In this document: positions 2,603 to 32,039 of the stretch, in pieces | Layout of the letters: each line of letters opens with the position of its first letter | Numbering within the stretch: the first letter of the stretch is position 1 | Virus record (IMG/VR): IMGVR_UViG_3300028569_000108 | Span: 1 to 32,137 of that record | DNA from: a virus | DNA: 32,137 nucleotides | Direction: 5' to 3' (one strand) | The notes under the pieces: generated by a model | The model's input: the letters and a program-made list of their open reading frames with translations, nothing else | What the model was told of the DNA's origin: nothing | The model's database searches: none | Program-made: the position numbers and the translations under genes

Positions 2603-3298
2603 ATGAATAATACAGAAAAAAAATTTAAAGATAATTTTTCAGTTATTTTGAATATGATTGAGAGTAACGAACCAAAAGTGTCTATTTGTCGTTTATTAAT
2701 GGTAAAACAAGATACATTAAATAAATACTTAAAAAAGTATGGTTTAGAGTATAATGGTAATCAGAATCGTAAAGGTAGACCTCATCTTGAATCCAGAAAA
2801 GATTATAAAGAATATACCGAAAATGGTAAATATATTAACACATCTCGATTAAGACAAATATTGGTAGAACAAGAGGTTAAAGAAAAAAAATGTGAGTGTT
2901 GTGGTTTAGAAGAATGGATGGGTAAACCAATACCTTTAGAACTCCACCACATAGATGAAAATAGATTTAATAATAAATTAGAAAATTTAAAAATTCTTTG
3001 CTCTAATTGTCATATGCAAGAACATAATTATTCTAATACAACAAAATTATTTAAAGTAAAAGATAAACCAATTAAAATTAAAAAAATGAAGACTTGTCAG
3101 TGTGGTTCACAAATTAATTTAAGATCAACGATGTGTGAAAAGTGTTGGAGTATAAAAAATAGAAGGGTTGAAAGACCTCCATTTAACCAATTACTTAGCG
3201 AAGTAACGGAAATGGGATATTCCGGTGTAGGTAGAAAATATGGTGTTAGTGATAATACAATAAGAAAGTGGTTAAGTACTATTGAAAAAGAATTATAA
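2603..3298 (+). CDS. HNH homing endonuclease with helix-turn-helix flanks (231 aa)
   Basis: The centre holds a zinc-supported HNH nuclease: C97/C100, the His pair in LELHHIDENRF (H115/H116), the ENLKILC Asn region, and C133/C136-H137. The N-terminal third looks like a helix-turn-helix (KVSICRLLMVKQDTLNKYL). The C-terminus repeats the theme (GVGRKYGVSDNTIRKWL), and a small CxC...CxxC zinc knuckle lies around 165-181. Such DNA-binding modules around HNH are typical of free-standing homing endonucleases, which cut an allele lacking the gene and spread by recombination. It lies directly after the tRNA-cluster terminator under a late-type motif. The cleavage site is not visible. Confidence 0.85.
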   Translation: MNNTEKKFKDNFSVILNMIESNEPKVSICRLLMVKQDTLNKYLKKYGLEYNGNQNRKGRPHLESRKDYKEYTENGKYINTSRLRQILVEQEVKEKKCECCGLEEWMGKPIPLELHHIDENRFNNKLENLKILCSNCHMQEHNYSNTTKLFKVKDKPIKIKKMKTCQCGSQINLRSTMCEKCWSIKNRRVERPPFNQLLSEVTEMGYSGVGRKYGVSDNTIRKWLSTIEKEL

Positions 3299-3880: not shown

Positions 3881-4186
3881 ATGATAACATTTAAGGATAT
3901 AGAGTTTAGACAACACCCAGATGGTGAAGGATCACACGGACTGATTTTTTTTCCTGGTGGATACGGACTTTCACTTATTAGAATTAAACATCCTTATAGT
4001 ACCAGATATTCGTCTTACACAGATGATAAAACCTGGGAGGTTGCGATTTTAAAAGGAACAAAAGATCAGTGGGAGATTTGCTATGATACAGAAATAACAA
4101 ATGATGTACTAGCTTACCAAACAGAAGAAGATATAAATAAAATAATTAAACACGTTCAAAGACTATATAACGATGAAAACAATTGA
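3881..4186 (+). CDS. Unknown small soluble protein (101 aa)
   Basis: A compact acidic protein, not recognised. It opens MITFKDIEFRQHPDGEGSHG and continues with alternating hydrophobic and charged stretches typical of a small alpha/beta fold (GLIFFPGGYGLSLIRI, TWEVAIL, WEICYD), ending in a helix (INKIIKHVQRLY). No signal peptide or membrane segment. The start is fixed by the promoter element four nucleotides upstream. Its last codons overlap the start of the following 38-codon gene, suggesting translational coupling. Confidence 0.7.
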   Translation: MITFKDIEFRQHPDGEGSHGLIFFPGGYGLSLIRIKHPYSTRYSSYTDDKTWEVAILKGTKDQWEICYDTEITNDVLAYQTEEDINKIIKHVQRLYNDENN

Positions 4187-5911: not shown

Positions 5912-7159
5912 TTATTTTACAGCTTTTCTTGTATAAGTTTTACAAGCGTCAAATTTACCAATTTCTTTTTGTTCATCAAACATATTTGGTGTGTCAGTAG
6001 CGTCAATAGCCTTTTCTTCCATTCCGGTAATTTTAAATGAAATTTGACCAACATTTGTATGACAATCGCTTGAATTATTGTAAGGACCTTGACCTCTATC
6101 GGTACAGGCTGCTGTAATAACTAAAGCACCATTATTTTTAAATAATACATCTCTATTAAAAAATGATTCATTTGTTATCTTATCTAAAACAAATGTGTTA
6201 GACCTACCACATTCATTACCTCTACCACATTTTTTATATTTGCTACCAGGTAATATTTCAGCATCATCAAAACCAACTTGTTTGTCATTTAAGACTCCTT
6301 TAACCTTTTTTCTAATTTTACCTATATTATTTAAAGATGCGTAATCTTCTCCGGTTTCTCTTTTAAGTTGTATTCCATTTGCAAATATGTTATATACAGC
6401 ATAGTTACAGTGGTGAGCAGTACCTTGATAATAAACTCTAATTCTTGAATTTTCGTAACATTCCCTTAAAGTTTCTTCACTTGGTATTATTTCACCTTGA
6501 TTTGTTGGTATTAATTGTGGTTTTAAATATGGTAATCTATCACTATCCTCACCAGTTTTTTGTTTAGCAACAGGACAAACGGTAATTTGAATTATAACAA
6601 CTTGCCCTTCTTTTGGATGTGTTGTTGTATTACGGTTTACATCACTAGCACCACCAGTATCAATAACGTGAGCTTCGGTTGTTGGCTCAACGCTAACAGT
6701 TAAACCAACTTTTTGTAACTCATCTAATATTGGTTGTTTAGTGGCGTTAATTCTTGCTTGAGCATAACCCATATTATTTTGAAATTCTTTAGTTTCGTTG
6801 GGTTTTCCGTCTCTTGGTGTGTAATCGTTATTTAATGTAAAATCAGATTTAACACCATTATCAACATTACTTGCACCACCAATAATTCTCATACTTGTTA
6901 CAGTACCCCCTTGAAATTCTGGTTTACCCTTAATTTGTTTATCAAGTTCTGCAATTATATTTGTTAAATATTCTGTGGAATCGGTCTTTTTAGGATTAAA
7001 TTTTCCACTGATTGTTAATGGAATACAACCATCACCACCTTGTTGAGTTGGTGTTGCTGGTGTTTCAGGTGTTGTTTCTTGTTCAGAAATTACCACACCT
7101 TTTTTATACCCCAAAAGGTATTTTATATAATTTAACTCTTCATTGATATTTTGTTTCAT
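5912..7159 (-). CDS. OmpA-like domain protein with a shared N-terminal helix motif (415 aa)
   Basis: The N-terminus INEELNYIKYLLGYKK is a short helix of the type also found at the C-terminus of the peptidase at 7960. A Thr/Pro/Gln linker (28-42) follows. Residues about 46-196 resemble an OmpA-like fold: TSMRIIGGASN, a helix GYAQARINATKQPILDELQKVGL, and a closing strand EGQVVIIQITV. The C-terminal half (about 215-415) is Cys-containing and beta-rich (YQGTAHHCNYAVYNIF, NGALVITAACTDRGQG) and not recognised. There is no signal peptide, so a virion role such as peptidoglycan contact at entry is more likely than secretion. The divergent late-type motif 13 nt upstream supports late expression. OmpA assignment is by pattern only. 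Confidence 0.5.
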   Translation of the reverse strand: MKQNINEELNYIKYLLGYKKGVVISEQETTPETPATPTQQGGDGCIPLTISGKFNPKKTDSTEYLTNIIAELDKQIKGKPEFQGGTVTSMRIIGGASNVDNGVKSDFTLNNDYTPRDGKPNETKEFQNNMGYAQARINATKQPILDELQKVGLTVSVEPTTEAHVIDTGGASDVNRNTTTHPKEGQVVIIQITVCPVAKQKTGEDSDRLPYLKPQLIPTNQGEIIPSEETLRECYENSRIRVYYQGTAHHCNYAVYNIFANGIQLKRETGEDYASLNNIGKIRKKVKGVLNDKQVGFDDAEILPGSKYKKCGRGNECGRSNTFVLDKITNESFFNRDVLFKNNGALVITAACTDRGQGPYNNSSDCHTNVGQISFKITGMEEKAIDATDTPNMFDEQKEIGKFDACKTYTRKAVK

Positions 7160-7466: not shown

Positions 7467-7934
7467 ATGAATATATTTTTTTTAGATTTTGATACACAAA
7501 AATGTGCACAGTATCATTGTGATAAACACGTAGTTAAGATGATACTTGAAACTGCACAACTTTTATGTGGTGTACATTGGGTTATTGGTTCAGAAGCACC
7601 ATATAAATTATCACACAAAAATCATCCTTGTGCTATTTGGTCCAGAGAATCATTATCAAATTATCTTTATTTATGTGATCTTGGTTTGGAGTTATGTAAA
7701 GAATATACTTACCGCTATGGTAAAAGACATAAATCACAGGATATAATAGAATGGTGTTTAATTAATAAACCAAATATACCAGATAAAGATTTTACCCAAC
7801 CAGCAAAAGCAATGCCAGACGAATATAAAGTGGAATCTGTTATTGACTCATATAGAAATTATTATATAGAAGCAAAAAAATCTTTTGTAAATTGGAAAAA
7901 TAGAAGTATTCCAGAATGGTTTTTAATAAGTTGA
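7467..7934 (+). CDS. Conserved phage protein with CDKHVVKM motif (155 aa)
   Basis: The protein has a highly recognisable set of motifs seen in many tailed-phage hypothetical proteins: CDKHVVKMILETAQLL (18-33), HKNHPCAIW (50-58), LCKEYTYRYGKRHKS (75-89), AMPDEYK (115-121) and WKNRSIPEWF near the end. Invariant His, Cys, Asp and Arg residues suggest an enzyme or nucleic-acid-binding protein, but I know no established function and do not assign one. No signal peptide. The start is fixed by the host-type promoter four nucleotides upstream, pointing to expression by unmodified host polymerase. A different gene set with late-type motifs flanks it on both sides. Confidence 0.65.
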   Translation: MNIFFLDFDTQKCAQYHCDKHVVKMILETAQLLCGVHWVIGSEAPYKLSHKNHPCAIWSRESLSNYLYLCDLGLELCKEYTYRYGKRHKSQDIIEWCLINKPNIPDKDFTQPAKAMPDEYKVESVIDSYRNYYIEAKKSFVNWKNRSIPEWFLIS

Positions 7935-7936
7935 TA

Positions 7937-7944
7937 TATTTATC
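7937..7944 (+). promoter_or_regulatory. Late-type motif TATTTATC
   Basis: Begins three nucleotides after the preceding stop codon and lies 15 nt before the ATG at 7960. Confidence 0.5.
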
Positions 7945-7959
7945 ATAAAAGTATTTTTA

Positions 7960-9045
7960 ATGAAACAATATATAAATGAATCAGAAACTTTTGGTTTTAC
8001 TGTTGGTAAAAAATACCCTGGATGTGTTAATCAACGTGCGGTTTGTCCCGGAGGTGGTATTGGCGGAAATTGGGGTGGATCAATGGAAAGAGCTCTTGAG
8101 GTTGCTTCTTGGGTTAAAGGTGTTGGAATCTATCCCGGTTCACAAAAACGTAGTAAAGAAAATACAGCAAGTGGTAGAAAATCTGATCACTGGCAAGGAT
8201 CTGTAGGTTCTTATGGTGTTGATATTGGTTGTTCGCTAAAACAAGGTGATGAAGGTTTTAAGATAATAAAAGATAAATTAGTAAAATTAGGTTGGATTAC
8301 TCAAGAAGTTGCAGATAGTAGTAAATGGAAGCCAGCTAGAAAAACATATTCCTCATTTACAAAAGATGGTTATAGATATCAAATTCTTTGGAGGTCTGAT
8401 TCTATGCACGACAATCACATACACGTTGGAGTAAGAAATACCTCAAGCTCATCATCCGAGTTCAAAAAAAGTGAATCCGATTCTTCGGAACCAACTAAAA
8501 AAAATCAAAAATCAACAGAAGAAACACCAAAAATTAAAAAAATATTTTACACAGTATTTTCTTCTGGCGAACAGTCAATAATTAAATCTGTTTTAGAAAA
8601 ATTGGGAACATTAGGTGTTAAAGATAATTTTTCTAAGATTGTTTTGGCCGCACTTGTTATTAATAAAAAAGATTCAATTGTAAAGGGTGAAACAACATCA
8701 AATTCAGAAGCTGAAACTTTCATAAATGATTTAAAAGATAAAACATTTAATAGTTTAGACGAATGTTTAGATTATTTTGAAAAAGAATTGGGTAAAACTG
8801 ATTTTAATAGAAGTGAAATTAAAACAATTGCCGAAAAGTTTGATGTTAAAATTTCCGATGATAGTGGTGGGGAAATCAAACTCGATTTGGAAAAAATCAA
8901 AGCTTTTATGAAAAAATTTAGAGAATACTACTCAAAAAAAGATATTGGTGAAGAAAAAAATGTTATAACAAAAAAAGAAGAGGAAAATATCAAATTAAAT
9001 GAAGAGTTAAGTAGAATGAAAGATTTGATGAAAAAAATTCTTTAA
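7960..9045 (+). CDS. M15-type peptidase with a C-terminal helix motif; probable endolysin or virion lysin (361 aa)
   Basis: The first ~160 residues contain the M15 (D-Ala-D-Ala carboxypeptidase/endopeptidase) signature: RKSDHWQGSVGSYGVDIG gives zinc ligands H77 and D88, and MHDNHIHVGV (149-158) gives the closing His pair. Such enzymes cleave the peptide stems of peptidoglycan. After a Ser/Lys linker (about 161-190) comes a ~170-residue helical, charged region of unknown role ending KLNEELSRMKDLMKKIL. That ending resembles the N-terminus of the protein at 5912 and the C-terminus of the scaffold at 27716. Length is well above a minimal M15 endolysin. A late-type motif precedes it and a holin candidate lies nearby, so lysis is likely; packaging as a virion enzyme is the alternative. 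Confidence 0.65.
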   Translation: MKQYINESETFGFTVGKKYPGCVNQRAVCPGGGIGGNWGGSMERALEVASWVKGVGIYPGSQKRSKENTASGRKSDHWQGSVGSYGVDIGCSLKQGDEGFKIIKDKLVKLGWITQEVADSSKWKPARKTYSSFTKDGYRYQILWRSDSMHDNHIHVGVRNTSSSSSEFKKSESDSSEPTKKNQKSTEETPKIKKIFYTVFSSGEQSIIKSVLEKLGTLGVKDNFSKIVLAALVINKKDSIVKGETTSNSEAETFINDLKDKTFNSLDECLDYFEKELGKTDFNRSEIKTIAEKFDVKISDDSGGEIKLDLEKIKAFMKKFREYYSKKDIGEEKNVITKKEEENIKLNEELSRMKDLMKKIL

Positions 9046-9050
9046 CTTTC

Positions 9051-9081
9051 TTGACACAATCAAATATTTAATATATGTTTG
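9051..9081 (+). promoter_or_regulatory. Host-type promoter
   Basis: TTG (9051-9053), 20-nt spacer, TATGTTTG (9074-9081). The start codon is 23 nt further, so this transcript has a short A-rich leader. Confidence 0.65.
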
Positions 9082-9104
9082 TAATGTATTTAAAAACAAA
9101 CAAA

Positions 9105-9254
9105 ATGACAGAACAAGAAACACAAGTAATTGAAGTTGAAATCTACGGATATGTTAACAAAGAAGGACAAAAAGTCTTCACACCAAATTTAGAGTTTGCC
9201 CATATTATGGCAACAAAGTATGGTACAACACATGTTTACGTAGAAAGAAATTAA
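9105..9254 (+). CDS. Small acidic protein (49 aa)
   Basis: The frame starts MTEQETQVIEVEIYGYVNK and ends HIMATKYGTTHVYVERN. It is acidic at the start, with two probable beta strands (VIEVEIYGYV and THVYVER) flanking a helix (LEFAHIMATKYG), so a small folded alpha/beta protein is plausible. Not recognised. The A-rich leader AAAACAAACAAA before the ATG is a typical Bacteroidota initiation context. It stands alone between the lysin gene and the giant-RNA promoter with its own promoter; no terminator separates it from the RNA unit. Confidence 0.6.
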   Translation: MTEQETQVIEVEIYGYVNKEGQKVFTPNLEFAHIMATKYGTTHVYVERN

Positions 9255-9271
9255 AAAAGTTCACAAAGTAC

Positions 9272-9302
9272 TTGACAAATCAAAATAAAAGTCTTAACTT
9301 TG
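9272..9302 (+). promoter_or_regulatory. Host-type promoter of the giant RNA
   Basis: TTG (9272-9274), 20-nt spacer, TAACTTTG (9295-9302). It is followed by AAAACAAAT, a TTCGG/CCGAA hairpin and the boxA-like GTTCTTTGAAAAT (9331-9343). Confidence 0.75.
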
Positions 9303-9305
9303 TAA

Positions 9306-10172
9306 AACAAATTCGGAAATGACCGAAAACGTTCTTTGAAAATAGAAATTATCCGTTCAGGAGTAAGTAATGAAACTGATAAAGATATTGGGCCGTGTAT
9401 AGTCCATAAAATAAACTGGGAAACCAGGATAAAGTGAGTGAGTTGTGTTAACTTATTTGCGGTTTAGGCAACTGAACTTGAGTACACAAGCGGGATACCG
9501 TTTAATCTTTAGTACCGAGGGCAACGCTGTAGGGAAAGTGGTTAGGTGAATTGGCAATGTGGGTTGTCAGTTTGAGATGGGAACATCAATAGGAATAACC
9601 CGTAGGAATTATGCAAAAAATAGAGTTATCCAATTTTATTATTGCGTGTTCCAGTATCATAGGATACTTAAAACCGAAAGGTATGTTCGTGTACAGGTGG
9701 TGCTGTTATTAACCTTGATTAAACCTTACCAAGGGTTCAATCTCGAAGTAGTCTAGAAATATTGAGATGGGGACATTTCAAGGAGTAGTTTGGTATTTTG
9801 TTATCCAAAAGGTAACAAAGCTTAAGACGGACCACTACTTCTATCAATCCACAACACAAAAACTTTTATGGAAAAGGTAAAACTTATAACTAAAAAGCAA
9901 AAGTGTTCGTCACGATATAACGGAAGTTACCCACCTATTCACTGGCAGTCAGTGGAACGTGATAACCGCAAGTTTGACCGTATTTTTATGAAAAATCTCT
10001 AGGTCGTCGAAGACCGAATCAGGACGCAATCTTGAGGAGACAGGAGTAGTAAGAGAGTAGTTATATCGTCAAGGAGTGATTGGTCTAACCAATCGGTAAT
10101 GAGTGTTACAAGTCAAAAGCTTGTGGATAAGAGTAGAATAAATAATGACTCAAAAGACACTTATAAAAAACT
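9306..10172 (+). ncRNA. Giant structured noncoding RNA (~870 nt), GOLLD/ROOL-like candidate
   Basis: No gene-length frame exists, and base composition is visibly richer in G and C than the neighbours. Helices visible by eye include: GTTCAG (about 9354) with CTGAAC (about 9470) closing a domain that contains CTGG-GAAA-CCAG; GATG-GGAA-CATC; ACC-GAAA-GGT; AGTATC-ATAG-GATACT; AACCTTG with CAAGGGTT; TTTGTTA with TAACAAA around CC-AAAA-GG; GTAGT with ACTAC; CACTG-GCAGT-CAGTG inside a TCACG/CGTGA helix; GGTC-GTCGAA-GACC; and GATTGGT-CTA-ACCAATC. Three of these loops are GNRA tetraloops. With its own promoter and boxA-like leader this is a stable RNA. Large ornate phage RNAs (GOLLD, ROOL) match in size and context; membership is unproven. 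No intrinsic terminator is evident, so the 3' end is approximate. Confidence 0.75.
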
Positions 10173-10184
10173 GTAATCTCAGGT

Positions 10185-10861
10185 TTATTTTAAAATTTTA
10201 GAACCTTTACTTAAATTTTCCTTAATCCATAGTGGTTGTAAATTAGTGTAATCACATAATTTATATATTTCTTCTTCTGTTTTTGCTGAAGATAGAGGTA
10301 TAATGTGATCAATATGCCACATATACCTATTATCCCAAGACATCCCATCAACAAATTTATTTTCAATATATCTTTTAAGGAATAAAGAATCACAACCTAC
10401 AATATCAAATGTTTTATTCTTTTTACTTATTTTATTTAATTTTAAAAAAGAATTTAACCTATTTCTAACATTTAATGATAGTTTATAAAGAATGTCATTT
10501 TTATATTTTTCATTTCTTTTTTTATAAAATAATACTTTATTCTTTTTTTGCCAAGTTTCTGGAGACTTACTTTTTTTATTAATAGAAATTATAATTTTTT
10601 TATTACGGTATATTTTATTTCGTAATAATTCTTTTTCTCTATTTTTCTGATAATATTCTCTTTGTTTTTCATTTAATAAACCCCTATTTTTTTCTCTATA
10701 TTTTTTGTCGTATCCATTAAGAATTTTTTTTGGTATTAGTTTTTTCTTTCCTTTGAACATTCTTTACATTCACTACGAAATCCATCCTTAGAATTATTGT
10801 TTTTTTGGAAAAGACAAATTTCTTTTAATTCTTTACATCCACTACAAATTTTTGTTTCCAT
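10185..10861 (-). CDS. Zinc-finger/HNH homing endonuclease split by a frameshift
   Basis: The upstream frame starts at 10861 and encodes 41 residues with two CxxC knuckles (KICSGCKE and ECKECSK), the usual N-terminal zinc ribbon of this HNH type, then stops at 10736. The remainder (191-codon open stretch below 10760) is in the -1 frame: a long basic helical region, then WDNRYMWHIDHIIPLSS and YTNLQPLWIKENLSKGSK, the complete HNH core. At the junction the heptamer A AAA AAC sits in the correct phase, immediately followed by the zero-frame TAA. A -1 slip there would give one protein of about 225 residues. The alternative is a recent inactivating indel. Its start overlaps the upstream ribbon-helix-helix gene by 20 nt, and it is convergent with the giant RNA. 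Confidence 0.65.
10739..10745 (-). promoter_or_regulatory. Candidate -1 frameshift slippery heptamer
   Basis: On the minus strand A AAA AAC, in the X XXY YYZ phase of the zinc-finger frame, with the zero-frame stop TAA as the very next codon. A -1 slip continues into the HNH frame with CTA ATA CCA. Confidence 0.5.
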
Positions 10862-10994
10862 AATAATCTTTTAAGAGTTTTTCAATCAATTTTGATTTGT
10901 TTATAATATCCTGGTCTAATTTTTTATTTATTTCCGGACTTAATGTTATTGATATTTTAATTCTTTTATCGGTTTCTTTTAATTTTGGTCTCAT
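10842..10994 (-). CDS. Ribbon-helix-helix DNA-binding protein (50 aa)
   Basis: KRIKISITLSPEINKKLDQDIINKSKLIEKLLKDYY is a classic ribbon-helix-helix layout: a basic beta strand with alternating residues, a first helix after SPE, a turn, then a second helix. Dimers of this fold bind DNA operators through the paired strands. The start MRPKLKETDK is chosen because a late-type motif lies three nucleotides upstream; a longer frame with an extra 19 hydrophobic residues would run through that motif. It overlaps the following zinc-finger/HNH gene by 20 nt, so it may regulate that gene or the opposing unit. The target is unknown. Confidence 0.7.
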   Translation of the reverse strand: MRPKLKETDKRIKISITLSPEINKKLDQDIINKSKLIEKLLKDYYGNKNL

Positions 10995-10997
10995 ATA

Positions 10998-11005
10998 TAT
11001 AAATA
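10998..11005 (-). promoter_or_regulatory. Late-type motif TATTTATA (minus strand)
   Basis: Three nucleotides before the ATG of the ribbon-helix-helix gene, on its coding strand. Confidence 0.55.
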
Positions 11006-11045
11006 TCGGTAAAAAAAGTAAAATACCGATTTTTAAAAAAATTGA

Positions 11046-11074
11046 GGACAACGGATGGTTGCCCTTTTCTTTTT
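11046..11074 (+). terminator. Weak hairpin with T-run
   Basis: GGACAAC (11046-11052) pairs with GTTGCCC (11058-11064) with one mismatch, then TTTTCTTTTT. It could end plus-strand transcription coming from the left, but no plus-strand gene ends nearby. Confidence 0.35.
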
Positions 11075-11129
11075 ACAAAAAATGTGATATATATTATTAT
11101 AATAAACCAAAAAAATTACCTTATTCAAA

Positions 11130-11276
11130 ATGAAAAAATTATTTTTAATTTCTTTAACAATTTTCACGACAATCTCTCTTATGACATCTTGTGGTGAAAA
11201 CGGAACTGGAAACGCAACACCAGAAGCTACTGTTGAAGCTACAGCTGTTGTAAAGGATACTACTGCTACTAAGTAA
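11130..11276 (+). CDS. Small lipoprotein (48 aa)
   Basis: MKKLFLISLTIFTTISLMTSCGENG has a basic start, a hydrophobic core and the lipobox LMTSC-G, so the mature peptide would begin with a lipidated Cys at residue 21 and carry only about 28 residues rich in Ala, Thr and Glu. It would sit at the outer membrane or inner leaflet. Candidate roles are an outer-membrane lysis protein (Rz1/o-spanin-like, though such proteins are usually proline-rich and this one is not) or a superinfection-exclusion lipoprotein. A strong terminator follows. No clear promoter is visible upstream; AT-rich ATATATATTATTATAATAAA may serve. Confidence 0.6.
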   Translation: MKKLFLISLTIFTTISLMTSCGENGTGNATPEATVEATAVVKDTTATK

Positions 11277-11300
11277 TTAGGATATGTCCTAAAAAAGAAA

Positions 11301-11326
11301 ACCCACTTCAAAAGAGTGGGTTTTTT
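11301..11326 (+). terminator. Intrinsic terminator
   Basis: ACCCACT (11301-11307) pairs with AGTGGGT (11315-11321) and six T follow. It ends the lipoprotein unit. Confidence 0.9.
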
Positions 11327-11346
11327 AATTTATTGTATTTTTTAAT

Positions 11347-11372
11347 AAAAAACCCCATCTGTGGAGATGGGG
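11347..11372 (-). terminator. Intrinsic terminator of the tmRNA
   Basis: Read on the minus strand, CCCCATCT pairs with AGATGGGG around CCAC, followed by TTTTTT. It begins about ten nucleotides after the tmRNA 3' end. Confidence 0.9.
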
Positions 11373-11382
11373 AGAACTATAG

Positions 11383-11797
11383 TGGAGGTGCGGAGGCTCG
11401 AACTCCGGTCCATAATATCCTGTCAGATAAGGACTACACGTTTAGGTTAACATTTTCTAACGTTCCAAAATATTTGGTTTTAATTTGACCAAAAACAAAT
11501 TTGATTTGTTCTTCACCATCGTAAATCAAAAACCAATGGTCCCGAATCGGATTTAAAGAGCCATCCGGTGTGCTCTATCAAACTACGACTTCTGTTGCTA
11601 GGTTATATGTCTGCCGACCCCCGTTTCCGTTTACTTATTAAGCTACAGTAACTTCAGAACCTCTTAGTAAACCAAGAGTTTCCATTTTGTTTAGCACATT
11701 GCCAGTTGTTTTTCTAAATCAGTTTTTAAGGAGATTAATTCAGTCTCCACGTGCCCTTATTCCTCAGCCGATACCTGTCAAATCCAAAAACACCCCC
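11383..11797 (-). ncRNA. ssrA: tmRNA (transfer-messenger RNA), phage-encoded
   Basis: On the minus strand the RNA begins GGGGGTGTTTTTGGATTTGAC, the canonical tmRNA 5' end, and closes with T-arm CGGAG-TTCGAGC-CTCCG and acceptor CACCTCC plus discriminator A, pairing with GGGGGTG. Helix P2 can form from GGTATC and GATATT. Pseudoknot PK1 is visible: GGAGA/TCTCC with loop CTGAAT pairing to ATTTAG. Ten nucleotides after PK1 a resume codon GGC opens a 21-codon tag frame ending in TAATAA. Length about 415 nt is normal. CCA is not encoded. The RNA tags proteins on stalled ribosomes and frees them. A phage copy with its own promoter and terminator suggests takeover of ribosome rescue during infection. 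Confidence 0.93.
11638..11703 (-). other. tmRNA tag reading frame (21 codons) with atypical C-terminus
   Basis: Reading from GGC ten nucleotides after PK1 gives a peptide that starts GNVLNKMETL and ends GSEVTVA, then TAA TAA. Usual tags are 8-15 residues and end in ALAA or similar, the signal for ClpXP and ClpAP. Here the last residues are VTVA. A start one base later gives AMC and then a stop, so it is not usable. A shorter tag from a later Gly codon (GSEVTVA) cannot be fully excluded. Confidence 0.65.
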
Positions 11798-11799
11798 AT

Positions 11800-11856
11800 A
11801 TTTTCAAAGAACTATATATAAATACAAATATAACAATATTTATTTAATATGGCAAG
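11800..11856 (-). promoter_or_regulatory. tmRNA promoter and boxA-like leader
   Basis: On the minus strand: CTTG (11856-11853), 20-nt spacer, TATATTTG (11832-11825), then GTTCTTTGAAAAT (11812-11800) directly before the RNA. The -33 element lies within codons 2-3 of the divergent gene at 11849. Confidence 0.75.
11837..11844 (+). promoter_or_regulatory. Late-type motif TATTTATT
   Basis: Four nucleotides before the ATG at 11849. It lies inside the spacer of the divergent tmRNA promoter, so the two promoters overlap on opposite strands. Confidence 0.55.
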
Positions 11857-12904
11857 TGAAACATACGAATTTTTAAAAAAAATTGCTAAAGGTGATGAAG
11901 TTAATAGATGGTCTTATCCAGATCCGCTAATAAATGATATTTCATATTCAAAAGGAAAGTCACCGAAAATTGAAATTACATTTGATGATGACGATGATTT
12001 TTTAAAAGTTTTAGGTGTTACTGATGATGAAGACTTATGGACCTGGAGAAGATTTATGGGTAGGTATAATTACGACTATGATTTTGATATGTGGAGATAT
12101 GAAGAAGATTGGAAAGAAGGATATATTGTTGGAAGTTTCCAGGGAGAAAATATTGAAATTACAAATGAAATATTAAAATTAATAAATCCAAATTTACGTT
12201 TACATCTTGGGAATAATGAAACGGAGAATTCTGAAATTTCAAAGCTTTTGGGGACTATGTTTCCAGATGAAGTCTCTGATATTATATATGAATATGGAAG
12301 ATATAACGAAGAATGTAACTCAAGGGCCGTACAAAAAACATTAATGGACGAAACGGATAATCCATTTATAAATTTTGGTATCATACAAAAACAACATGCT
12401 TATAAATTTGTAACATCTGTTAATATTTTATTAAATTTATATAAAATGTTAAATGCTGAAGACGAGGATTTAAAAATAATGTTAAAATTACTATATGAAA
12501 ATTATGGAGGTAAAGCTATTGGTGGTTGGTATGAGTTAGAATATAGTGTTTGGTGTGATGATTATGATACCGAAGGTTTTCAGCAAAAAGTTAAAAGAAA
12601 CCTTAATAAGATGTTAGAAAAAGCTGAAGAAGATTTTGAAGGTGTTGGCCAAGAAGAATATAATAAAATGTACGATAAAGTTATGAGTCTTGGTGGTTTT
12701 AGTAAATTAATAGATTTACCAGAAAAAGGTATTGATGTTTTATTTTATAAATTTGACACAAAAACAAATACGTTATTTTTTGATTTGTATAAAGGTAATA
12801 AAAAAGAAACAAGATCTGTCAATAATCTTGAAGATTTGAATTTACAGTTATATCATCCAGAACTTTTTGAAAGTGTAAGAAGAATATTAAAAAAACTTTT
12901 GTAA
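11849..12904 (+). CDS. Unknown acidic protein with C-terminal helix (351 aa)
   Basis: Not recognised. The N-terminal part (1-100) is rich in Asp, Trp and Tyr (ITFDDDDDFLKVLGV, DLWTWRRFMGRYNYDYDFDMW), the middle is helical, and the C-terminus ends HPELFESVRRILKKLL, a basic amphipathic helix resembling the termini of several other proteins here (5912, 7960, 27716). No signal peptide or membrane segment. The late-type motif four nucleotides before the ATG suggests late expression, so a virion or head-assembly role is possible. The last codons supply the -33 TTTG of the following host-type promoter. Confidence 0.6.
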   Translation: MASETYEFLKKIAKGDEVNRWSYPDPLINDISYSKGKSPKIEITFDDDDDFLKVLGVTDDEDLWTWRRFMGRYNYDYDFDMWRYEEDWKEGYIVGSFQGENIEITNEILKLINPNLRLHLGNNETENSEISKLLGTMFPDEVSDIIYEYGRYNEECNSRAVQKTLMDETDNPFINFGIIQKQHAYKFVTSVNILLNLYKMLNAEDEDLKIMLKLLYENYGGKAIGGWYELEYSVWCDDYDTEGFQQKVKRNLNKMLEKAEEDFEGVGQEEYNKMYDKVMSLGGFSKLIDLPEKGIDVLFYKFDTKTNTLFFDLYKGNKKETRSVNNLEDLNLQLYHPELFESVRRILKKLL

Positions 12905-12928
12905 ATCAAAATAATATTTCTATATTTG
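12898..12928 (+). promoter_or_regulatory. Host-type promoter
   Basis: TTTG (12898-12901, overlapping the preceding stop), 19-nt spacer, TATATTTG (12921-12928), exactly four nucleotides before the ATG at 12933. Confidence 0.75.
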
Positions 12929-12932
12929 TTGT

Positions 12933-13718
12933 ATGGAAAGAAATTTTGAATTATTAAAACAAGTACTATCTGTACCAACAAAAACATACCAAGAAGATTT
13001 GATGATTGATTTCATTACAGAATGGTTGGGTGAAAACAATATACCATATTATGTTGATAGTTTTTACAACATATACGCAACAAAACAAACTGATGAAAAT
13101 ATCGAGTATTTCCCTTGTGTTGTTGCTCACACAGACACGGTTCATAATTTAGACACAATCAATGTTGTGGAAGAGATGCTCCCAAATTCACAGAAAGAGG
13201 TTAAACTAGCACTTAAAGCATATAATGATAGTGGAGACCCAACTGGTATCGGTGGTGACGACAAATGTGGTGTATATGCTTGTCTTGAATTATTAAAAGA
13301 ACTACCAAATTTAAAAGCCGCGTTTTTTGTTGCGGAAGAAACTGGGTGTAAAGGTTCATCAAATGCTGACCCAAAATTCTTTACAAATATTGGATATGTA
13401 ATCCAATTTGATGCACCAGAAAACAATATGATTTCCGAGTTTTTGATGAATAAACCAATGTTTAAAAGAGATTCAGAATTTTTTAATGTCGGAGGTCGTT
13501 TAATAACAGAACACTTTCCAGGTGATACCAAATATCACAGACACCCCTATACGGACATATTTCCGTTAAACCAAAATTTTGGTCTATCTTGTTTTAACAT
13601 ATCAATTGGTTATTACAACTACCACACAAAAAATGAATACGTTGTTGTGGAAGATACCTATAACGGTATTAAGGTTGGTAAACTAATGATAGAAGAATTA
13701 GGTTATACTAAACATTAA
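12933..13718 (+). CDS. M20-type metallopeptidase without lid domain (261 aa)
   Basis: All ligands of a two-zinc M20/M28-type peptidase are visible in order: VVAHTDTVH (H66, D68), GIGGDDKCGV (D109/D110), FFVAEETGCKGS (general base E135 and ligand E136), IQFDAPE (D160) and YNYHTKNEY (H231). Family members such as PepT are about 400 residues with an inserted dimerisation domain; here the protein is 261 residues and that lid is reduced or missing. It would cleave small peptides or acyl-amino acids in the cytoplasm. It converges on the ClpC-like gene, sharing a bidirectional terminator, so it could finish peptides made by Clp proteolysis. That link is inference. Host-type leaderless promoter. Confidence 0.8.
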   Translation: MERNFELLKQVLSVPTKTYQEDLMIDFITEWLGENNIPYYVDSFYNIYATKQTDENIEYFPCVVAHTDTVHNLDTINVVEEMLPNSQKEVKLALKAYNDSGDPTGIGGDDKCGVYACLELLKELPNLKAAFFVAEETGCKGSSNADPKFFTNIGYVIQFDAPENNMISEFLMNKPMFKRDSEFFNVGGRLITEHFPGDTKYHRHPYTDIFPLNQNFGLSCFNISIGYYNYHTKNEYVVVEDTYNGIKVGKLMIEELGYTKH

Positions 13719-31361: not shown

Positions 31362-32039
31362 ATGAAAAAGTATATCCCAACACAAGAAACCATTGATATA
31401 ATACTTAAAATGTATAATGACGAATTATTAGGTTCAAAATCAATTTCACAAGAATTAAATATAAACCAACAAATTATTTTAAGAATTTTAAAAGAAAATG
31501 GTGTTCAGGTTGGTCCGTCTGGAAGAAGATTTATTGGTGGAAAAAAAGTTGCCGATAAAAAATACCGTGAAAAAAATAAAGAAAGATTATATAATAATCA
31601 CAAAGAATGGTATGAAGAAAACAAAGACAAATGGAACGAATATATAAAAGAATATCGTGAAAAAAATAAAGACAAAATTCGTGAAATAAAAAGAAACTAC
31701 GAAAGAACTCGTAAAGCAAATGACCCCATCTATAAACTAATCAATAATTTCAGAACCGCAATATATCAAGTATTAAAAGAAAACCAAATTCAAAAAAACG
31801 GTCACTACTTTGAGACACTAAAATATTCACCAGAAAACCTAATAGAACATTTAGAGAGTAAATTTAAAGATAATATGACTTGGGATAATTATGGTAAGTG
31901 GCACGTAGATCACATAAAACCAATATCGTCATTTCAGATAACAGAAATTGGTGATGATGAATTTATGACTTGTTGGTCCTTAAAAAACCTACAACCATTA
32001 TGGAGTGACGAAAACATAAGAAAATCAAACAAATTATAA
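31362..32039 (+). CDS. HNH homing endonuclease (225 aa)
   Basis: The N-terminus is a helix-turn-helix (GSKSISQELNINQQIILRILKENGV, about 24-48), then a long Lys/Glu/Asn-rich helix with repeats of KEYREKNKDK, then the HNH core: MTWDNYGKWHVDHIKPISSF (about 172-191) and LKNLQPLWSDENIRKSNK at the end. The core closely resembles the split HNH gene at 10185 (WDNRYMWHIDHIIPLSS ... NLQPLWIKEN), so these two are one family, while that at 2603 is another. It is inserted after the capsid gene, a typical homing-gene position next to a conserved virion gene. Intact frame. Confidence 0.85.
   Translation: MKKYIPTQETIDIILKMYNDELLGSKSISQELNINQQIILRILKENGVQVGPSGRRFIGGKKVADKKYREKNKERLYNNHKEWYEENKDKWNEYIKEYREKNKDKIREIKRNYERTRKANDPIYKLINNFRTAIYQVLKENQIQKNGHYFETLKYSPENLIEHLESKFKDNMTWDNYGKWHVDHIKPISSFQITEIGDDEFMTCWSLKNLQPLWSDENIRKSNKL

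Follow-up and report, generated by a model that had tools for sequence, protein, structure and literature searches.

An in-phase A AAA AAC heptamer at the frame junction of a phage HNH nuclease gene that very probably is in decay

The DNA analysed here (the window) is a stretch of 32,137 nucleotides from a virus: positions 1 to 32,137 of IMG/VR record IMGVR_UViG_3300028569_000108. It contains an HNH nuclease gene whose two halves lie in different reading frames and meet at what looks like a slippery site for −1 frameshifting. Very probably, this gene derives from a free-standing HNH homing-endonuclease gene of a phage and is now in decay, and its slippery site is incidental. The ancestral gene would have encoded one protein, consisting of a zinc ribbon, basic helical repeats of about 15 residues and an HNH domain. 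Together with an overlapping gene for a small ribbon-helix-helix (RHH) protein, it would have been inserted between a GOLLD RNA and the hairpin downstream of it, and would then have decayed, as homing endonucleases do once fixed, by two lesions: a stop in the zinc-ribbon frame just past the second CxxC and, as a separate event in the 35 nt or so that follow, a loss of frame.

Both halves of the gene are on the minus strand. The zinc-ribbon open reading frame (ORF; 10736..10861), an N-terminal fragment of the nuclease, starts with ATG at 10861, encodes a protein of 41 amino acids (METKICSGCKELKEICLFQKNNNSKDGFRSECKECSKERKN) and ends with the stop codon TAA at 10738–10736. Its final codons are AGA AAA AAC TAA, which place the heptamer A AAA AAC (10745–10739) in the X XXY YYZ phase directly ahead of the 0-frame stop; the ORF contains another A AAA AAC in phase, at 10799..10805. 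The −1 frame is open from a stop at 10766–10764, via an internal ATG at 10760, to 10185. From the internal ATG (10185..10760), it encodes 191 amino acids that comprise the basic helical repeats and the HNH domain, with the motif WHIDH...TNLQPLW...N. Direct reading confirmed, at the same coordinates, the preliminary description of a zinc-ribbon frame that ends at an in-phase A AAA AAC and of a −1 frame that continues into the basic and HNH regions.

Relatives of the gene were collected by scanning viral contigs with the HNH ORF as query, which gave 79 loci. In 70 of these (49 distinct proteins), the zinc ribbon, the basic helices or linker and the HNH domain are in one open frame, and seven loci are cut by contig ends. 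The other two, L033 and L068, are interrupted in the basic region by one in-frame TGA each (at about 3187–3189 and about 2995–2997, respectively) and apart from it share about 90% identity with intact copies; inactivated alleles thus appear to belong to the life of this nuclease family. Both halves of the window gene match a single PHROGs profile, phrog_1035, at adjoining positions: 61–100 for the zinc-ribbon ORF and 97–213 for the HNH ORF. One profile for both halves, taken together with the one-frame relatives, implies that the gene was formerly one protein. In matching this profile, the two halves are like the phage HNH proteins of phrog_1035 and phrog_28061 that are annotated as “endonuclease VII”, but they differ from those proteins in being in different frames, with a stop between them. 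Among relatives in bacterial genomes, 22 of the 41 genes detected have a continuous zinc ribbon and HNH domain, and one has them in separate frames. No near phage genome was found for the window. The window has two more HNH-type genes, at 2603–3298 and 31362–32039 (both on the plus strand); the latter is of the same type as the broken gene (HNH and basic repeats, phrog_1035), with a different N-terminus.

In Escherichia coli dnaX and in transposases of the IS3 family, programmed −1 frameshifting takes place at sites of the type A AAA AAG, and the window site is like these in having X XXY YYZ in phase before a stop. The preliminary description had proposed that frameshifting at A AAA AAC produces the full-length nuclease at low dose, and the exact phase of the heptamer directly ahead of the stop is in favour of this, as is the entry of the −1 frame into a well-conserved HNH domain. 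However, the arrangement is unique to the window copy, all sampled intact relatives having one frame. The heptamer, the conservation of which in related phages had been suggested as a check, occurs near the same position in only one of the 49 relatives, and there without a stop; relatives of just this kind, uninterrupted in frame and lacking the heptamer, had been named beforehand as grounds for abandoning recoding. Unlike the sites of the dnaX and IS3 type, the window site thus lacks conservation and also a stimulator: the best structure 3′ of the heptamer, folded without pseudoknots, has −4.7 kcal/mol (z −0.34), and 70 of 200 shuffles were as good. Stimulatory Shine-Dalgarno-like elements stand about 10 nt before a slippery site, whereas the Shine-Dalgarno-like AAAGGA in the window ends 3 nt ahead of the heptamer.

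The heptamer is also what would turn up in such a gene anyway. AAAAAAC is found 35 times in the window, compared with 39.8 expected from shuffles, i.e., no more often than by chance, and the mean number per gene in the intact relatives is 0.71 for A AAA AAC and 4.76 for A AAA AAN, both counted in phase. Of the single-base deletions simulated in intact relatives, 32% left an in-phase X XXY YYZ where the two frames overlap, and of those inside A-runs of 7 or more, 60% did so. Slippery heptamers are common after loss from an A-run because the shortened run tends to read as A-codons in both frames. Very probably, the heptamer before the stop is a by-product of A-rich coding for lysine and asparagine, incidental in its position, and not a working recoding signal.

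The position of the lesions can be deduced from the homology of each frame to the relatives. The relatives are conserved just 3′ of the second CxxC, with Tyr or Trp at column +8 in 43 of the 49 and Asn at column +12 in 46. When frame 0 of the window is read past its own stop, it gives Tyr at +8, Gln at +9 and Lys at +10, whereas the −1 frame gives Ile, Pro and Lys; over columns 7–12, frame 0 scores +2.1 bits and the −1 frame −10.6. The score was calibrated by leave-one-out on the relatives: their true frames have a mean of 7.7 (sd 6.0), and the best of 98 off-frame controls has 0.0, so that none of the 98 reaches +2.1, in a test that leans mainly on the near-invariant Tyr at +8 and on 49 partly related sequences. 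This argues strongly, if not absolutely, that the ancestral frame, both at the stop and past it, is that of the zinc ribbon. With homology of frame 0 extending beyond it, the TAA (10736..10738, minus strand) would be a nonsense lesion at a position where the relatives have a sense codon. Such homology past the stop is a further difference from the sites of the dnaX and IS3 type and a further point against recoding, which is very improbable here.

The second lesion, a stretch in which the frame is lost, would lie within 10700..10735 (minus strand), for frame 0 is homologous at 10735–10733 (the Tyr of column +8) and homology in the −1 frame sets in with the YREKN repeat unit that starts at 10700. 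The case is strong, while short of absolute, that two lesions would account for the data where one A-run indel, biological or technical, would not. The window gene does not have the continuous open frame of a working copy, being interrupted by the stop at 10738–10736 and by the frame loss at 10735–10700, and is therefore a degenerate member of its family, from which a full-length product would no longer be expected. The other explanation in the preliminary description, that the gene had been broken by an indel in an A-run, can be retained in part: the gene is broken, but not by a lone indel in the heptamer, as the TAA interrupts the ancestral frame itself and the change of frame follows downstream of it, at 10735–10700. 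A lone homopolymer indel or misread at 10740–10745 is disfavoured because it leaves the stop in the ancestral frame unexplained. Sequencing or assembly error in a gene that is really intact has to be considered, given that the window is a metagenomic virus contig, that A-runs are prone to error and that the viral contigs contain no identical copy of the window allele, or any other copy of it, whatever the number of A's. One miscalled A-run, however, would fit the change of frame and not the TAA, and L033 and L068 are real-looking nonsense alleles in the same family; an error of this kind is thus quite unlikely.

The HNH half of the gene is well preserved. Of 54 near-invariant columns it retains 51, among them the catalytic-type H, D, H and N; its three departures from these columns compare with a mean of 1.4 in the relatives. 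WHIDH...N...N, which contains the catalytic His and Asn of an HNH domain as expected of a homing endonuclease of this kind, is invariant in the alignments. The Pfam HNH match of the window ORF is weak. In a structure model of a full-length relative, the zinc ribbon and helices were good and the HNH domain was poor, and for this reason the HNH half was modelled alone (pLDDT 89). The best neighbours of this model among solved structures are HNH nucleases (Z at most 4.2), and viral HNH proteins in BFVD match it with E to 1e-10; a sequence search against solved structures gave no match. The good conservation of the HNH half counts against decay of the gene, and implies either that the decay is recent or that the half ORF is still in use, translated from the ATG at 10760. 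In the latter case, the gene could have been split into two proteins, with the HNH ORF translated by reinitiation at this ATG; its overlap of 25 nt with the zinc-ribbon stop is comparable with the one between the RHH stop and the zinc-ribbon start. Nevertheless, not one of the relatives has such an arrangement, and the break resembles damage rather than a conserved layout, so that a split is improbable.

The surroundings of the gene fit a decaying mobile nuclease gene. The RHH gene and the broken HNH gene constitute an insert of about 830 bp (10203..11031, minus strand, with boundaries accurate to about ±20 bp) that is missing from the same site in close relatives of the window, as is characteristic of homing-endonuclease genes. 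L164 and L180 (84% identical) align to window 7900–10202 and 11032–13000, with 5 bp between the two segments; L186 is likewise empty (gap at 10203–11034), and so is L165, in which the alignment resumes at 10997. L163 has a different gene at the site, and more distant relatives have 2–3 kb of other genes that separate the GOLLD RNA from a tmRNA. An imperfect inverted repeat, ATCGGTA...TACCGAT, is located beside the RHH start (window 11005–11030), and L165 keeps much of it at about 6202–6230, though without an RHH or HNH gene. Perhaps, this remnant is the scar of a lost insert.

On one side of the insert is the GOLLD RNA (RF02032; 9781..10185, plus strand; 292.5 bits by cmscan, with a gathering score of 150), which at its 3′ end reaches the HNH stop codon. 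It is kept in the relatives L163–L186, also where the content of the site differs, and the ORF-poor stretch at 9255–9780, upstream of the match, probably constitutes its 5′ part. Adjoining the insert on the opposite side is a hairpin with a T-run (11045..11065), terminator-like on the minus strand, and direct reading revealed a similar hairpin in L164 and L186. In mycobacteria, a GOLLD RNA and an HNH gene have been reported together in a tRNA cluster (PMC6582537). GOLLD as a usual neighbour of the present nuclease family was rejected, as none was found near the HNH relatives at the 40 loci tested. The window phage has its own tmRNA next to the GOLLD RNA (11380–11797, minus strand; 105.5 bits with Rfam, missed by ARAGORN), which is kept in relatives, as well as nine or ten tRNAs clustered at 318–2432.

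The RHH gene (10842..10994, minus strand) encodes 50 amino acids and overlaps the start of the zinc-ribbon ORF, and hence of the nuclease gene, by 20 nt. The window protein matches RHH_3 with E 0.0035, below the cut-off. A homologous RHH ORF overlaps the start of the nuclease gene in 46 of the 49 relatives, by 11, 20, 23 or 29 nt and in a constant relative frame; no RHH gene was detected beside the relatives in bacterial genomes with a crude pattern. Just 5′ of the RHH start codon is a conserved promoter-like motif, TTTT-N12-GATATTTAT (10999..11025, minus strand), which occurs with equal spacing a few bases ahead of the RHH start in most of the 46 relatives. As (G/A)ATATTTATA is also present in the window ahead of the genes for terminase, portal and protease, the motif looks phage-wide. 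Ahead of these structural genes, it forms a second class of promoter motif in the window, beside TAnnTTTG-like motifs (e.g., TATATCTTTGTT) that are found upstream of the genes at 3881, 5325, 7467 and 12933; the TAnnTTTG-like motifs we take to suggest a host in the Bacteroidota.

By their flanks, the relatives divide into several unrelated groups, and the window belongs to none of them; this suggests that the RHH and HNH genes move as a pair. The pair is like type II toxin–antitoxin operons (CcdA, BrnA), in that a small RHH gene lies directly upstream of, and overlaps, a potentially toxic nuclease gene, and two of five RHH partners tested in the relatives pass the Pfam cut-off for the CcdA antitoxin. 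It is unlike them in that the partner is an HNH nuclease of homing type rather than CcdB or BrnT, and the roles of toxin and antitoxin are putative. PADLOC gave no match, and a literature search for an RHH–HNH homing cassette returned nothing specific. Control of the nuclease dose would be the likely role of the RHH protein. Tentatively, and with considerable doubt, the real unit can be envisaged as a mobile two-gene cassette whose homing endonuclease would be repressed or neutralised by the antitoxin-like RHH protein encoded across its start, and of which the window would have a decaying copy between the GOLLD RNA and the terminator.

Degenerated homing-endonuclease genes are documented in phages. 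In phage T5, hegG and hegJ are degenerated, frameshifted genes for free-standing HNH homing endonucleases, and further degenerated cases are mobA of T4 and group V of Xanthomonas oryzae phage (PMC2248197); in Skunavirus, 56 of 268 HNH genes are truncated (PMC12724721). The window gene is like the group of hegG and hegJ in being a free-standing HNH gene that is missing at the site in close relatives and has point lesions, including a frameshift, while its relatives are intact. It differs from that group in belonging to another HNH subfamily (zinc ribbon and 15-residue basic repeats, phrog_1035) and in having an RHH partner that would travel with it. Presumably, the ancestor was active in homing and decayed following its fixation.

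A textbook-looking slippery heptamer at the frame junction of an A-rich phage gene can thus be fully explained by decay of the gene, and testing the upstream frame for homology past its stop separates recoding from decay without recourse to reads. Of more interest than the slippery site is the conserved RHH–HNH cassette: the overlap of these two genes in freshwater phages provides a testable idea of how the dose of a homing nuclease may be limited.
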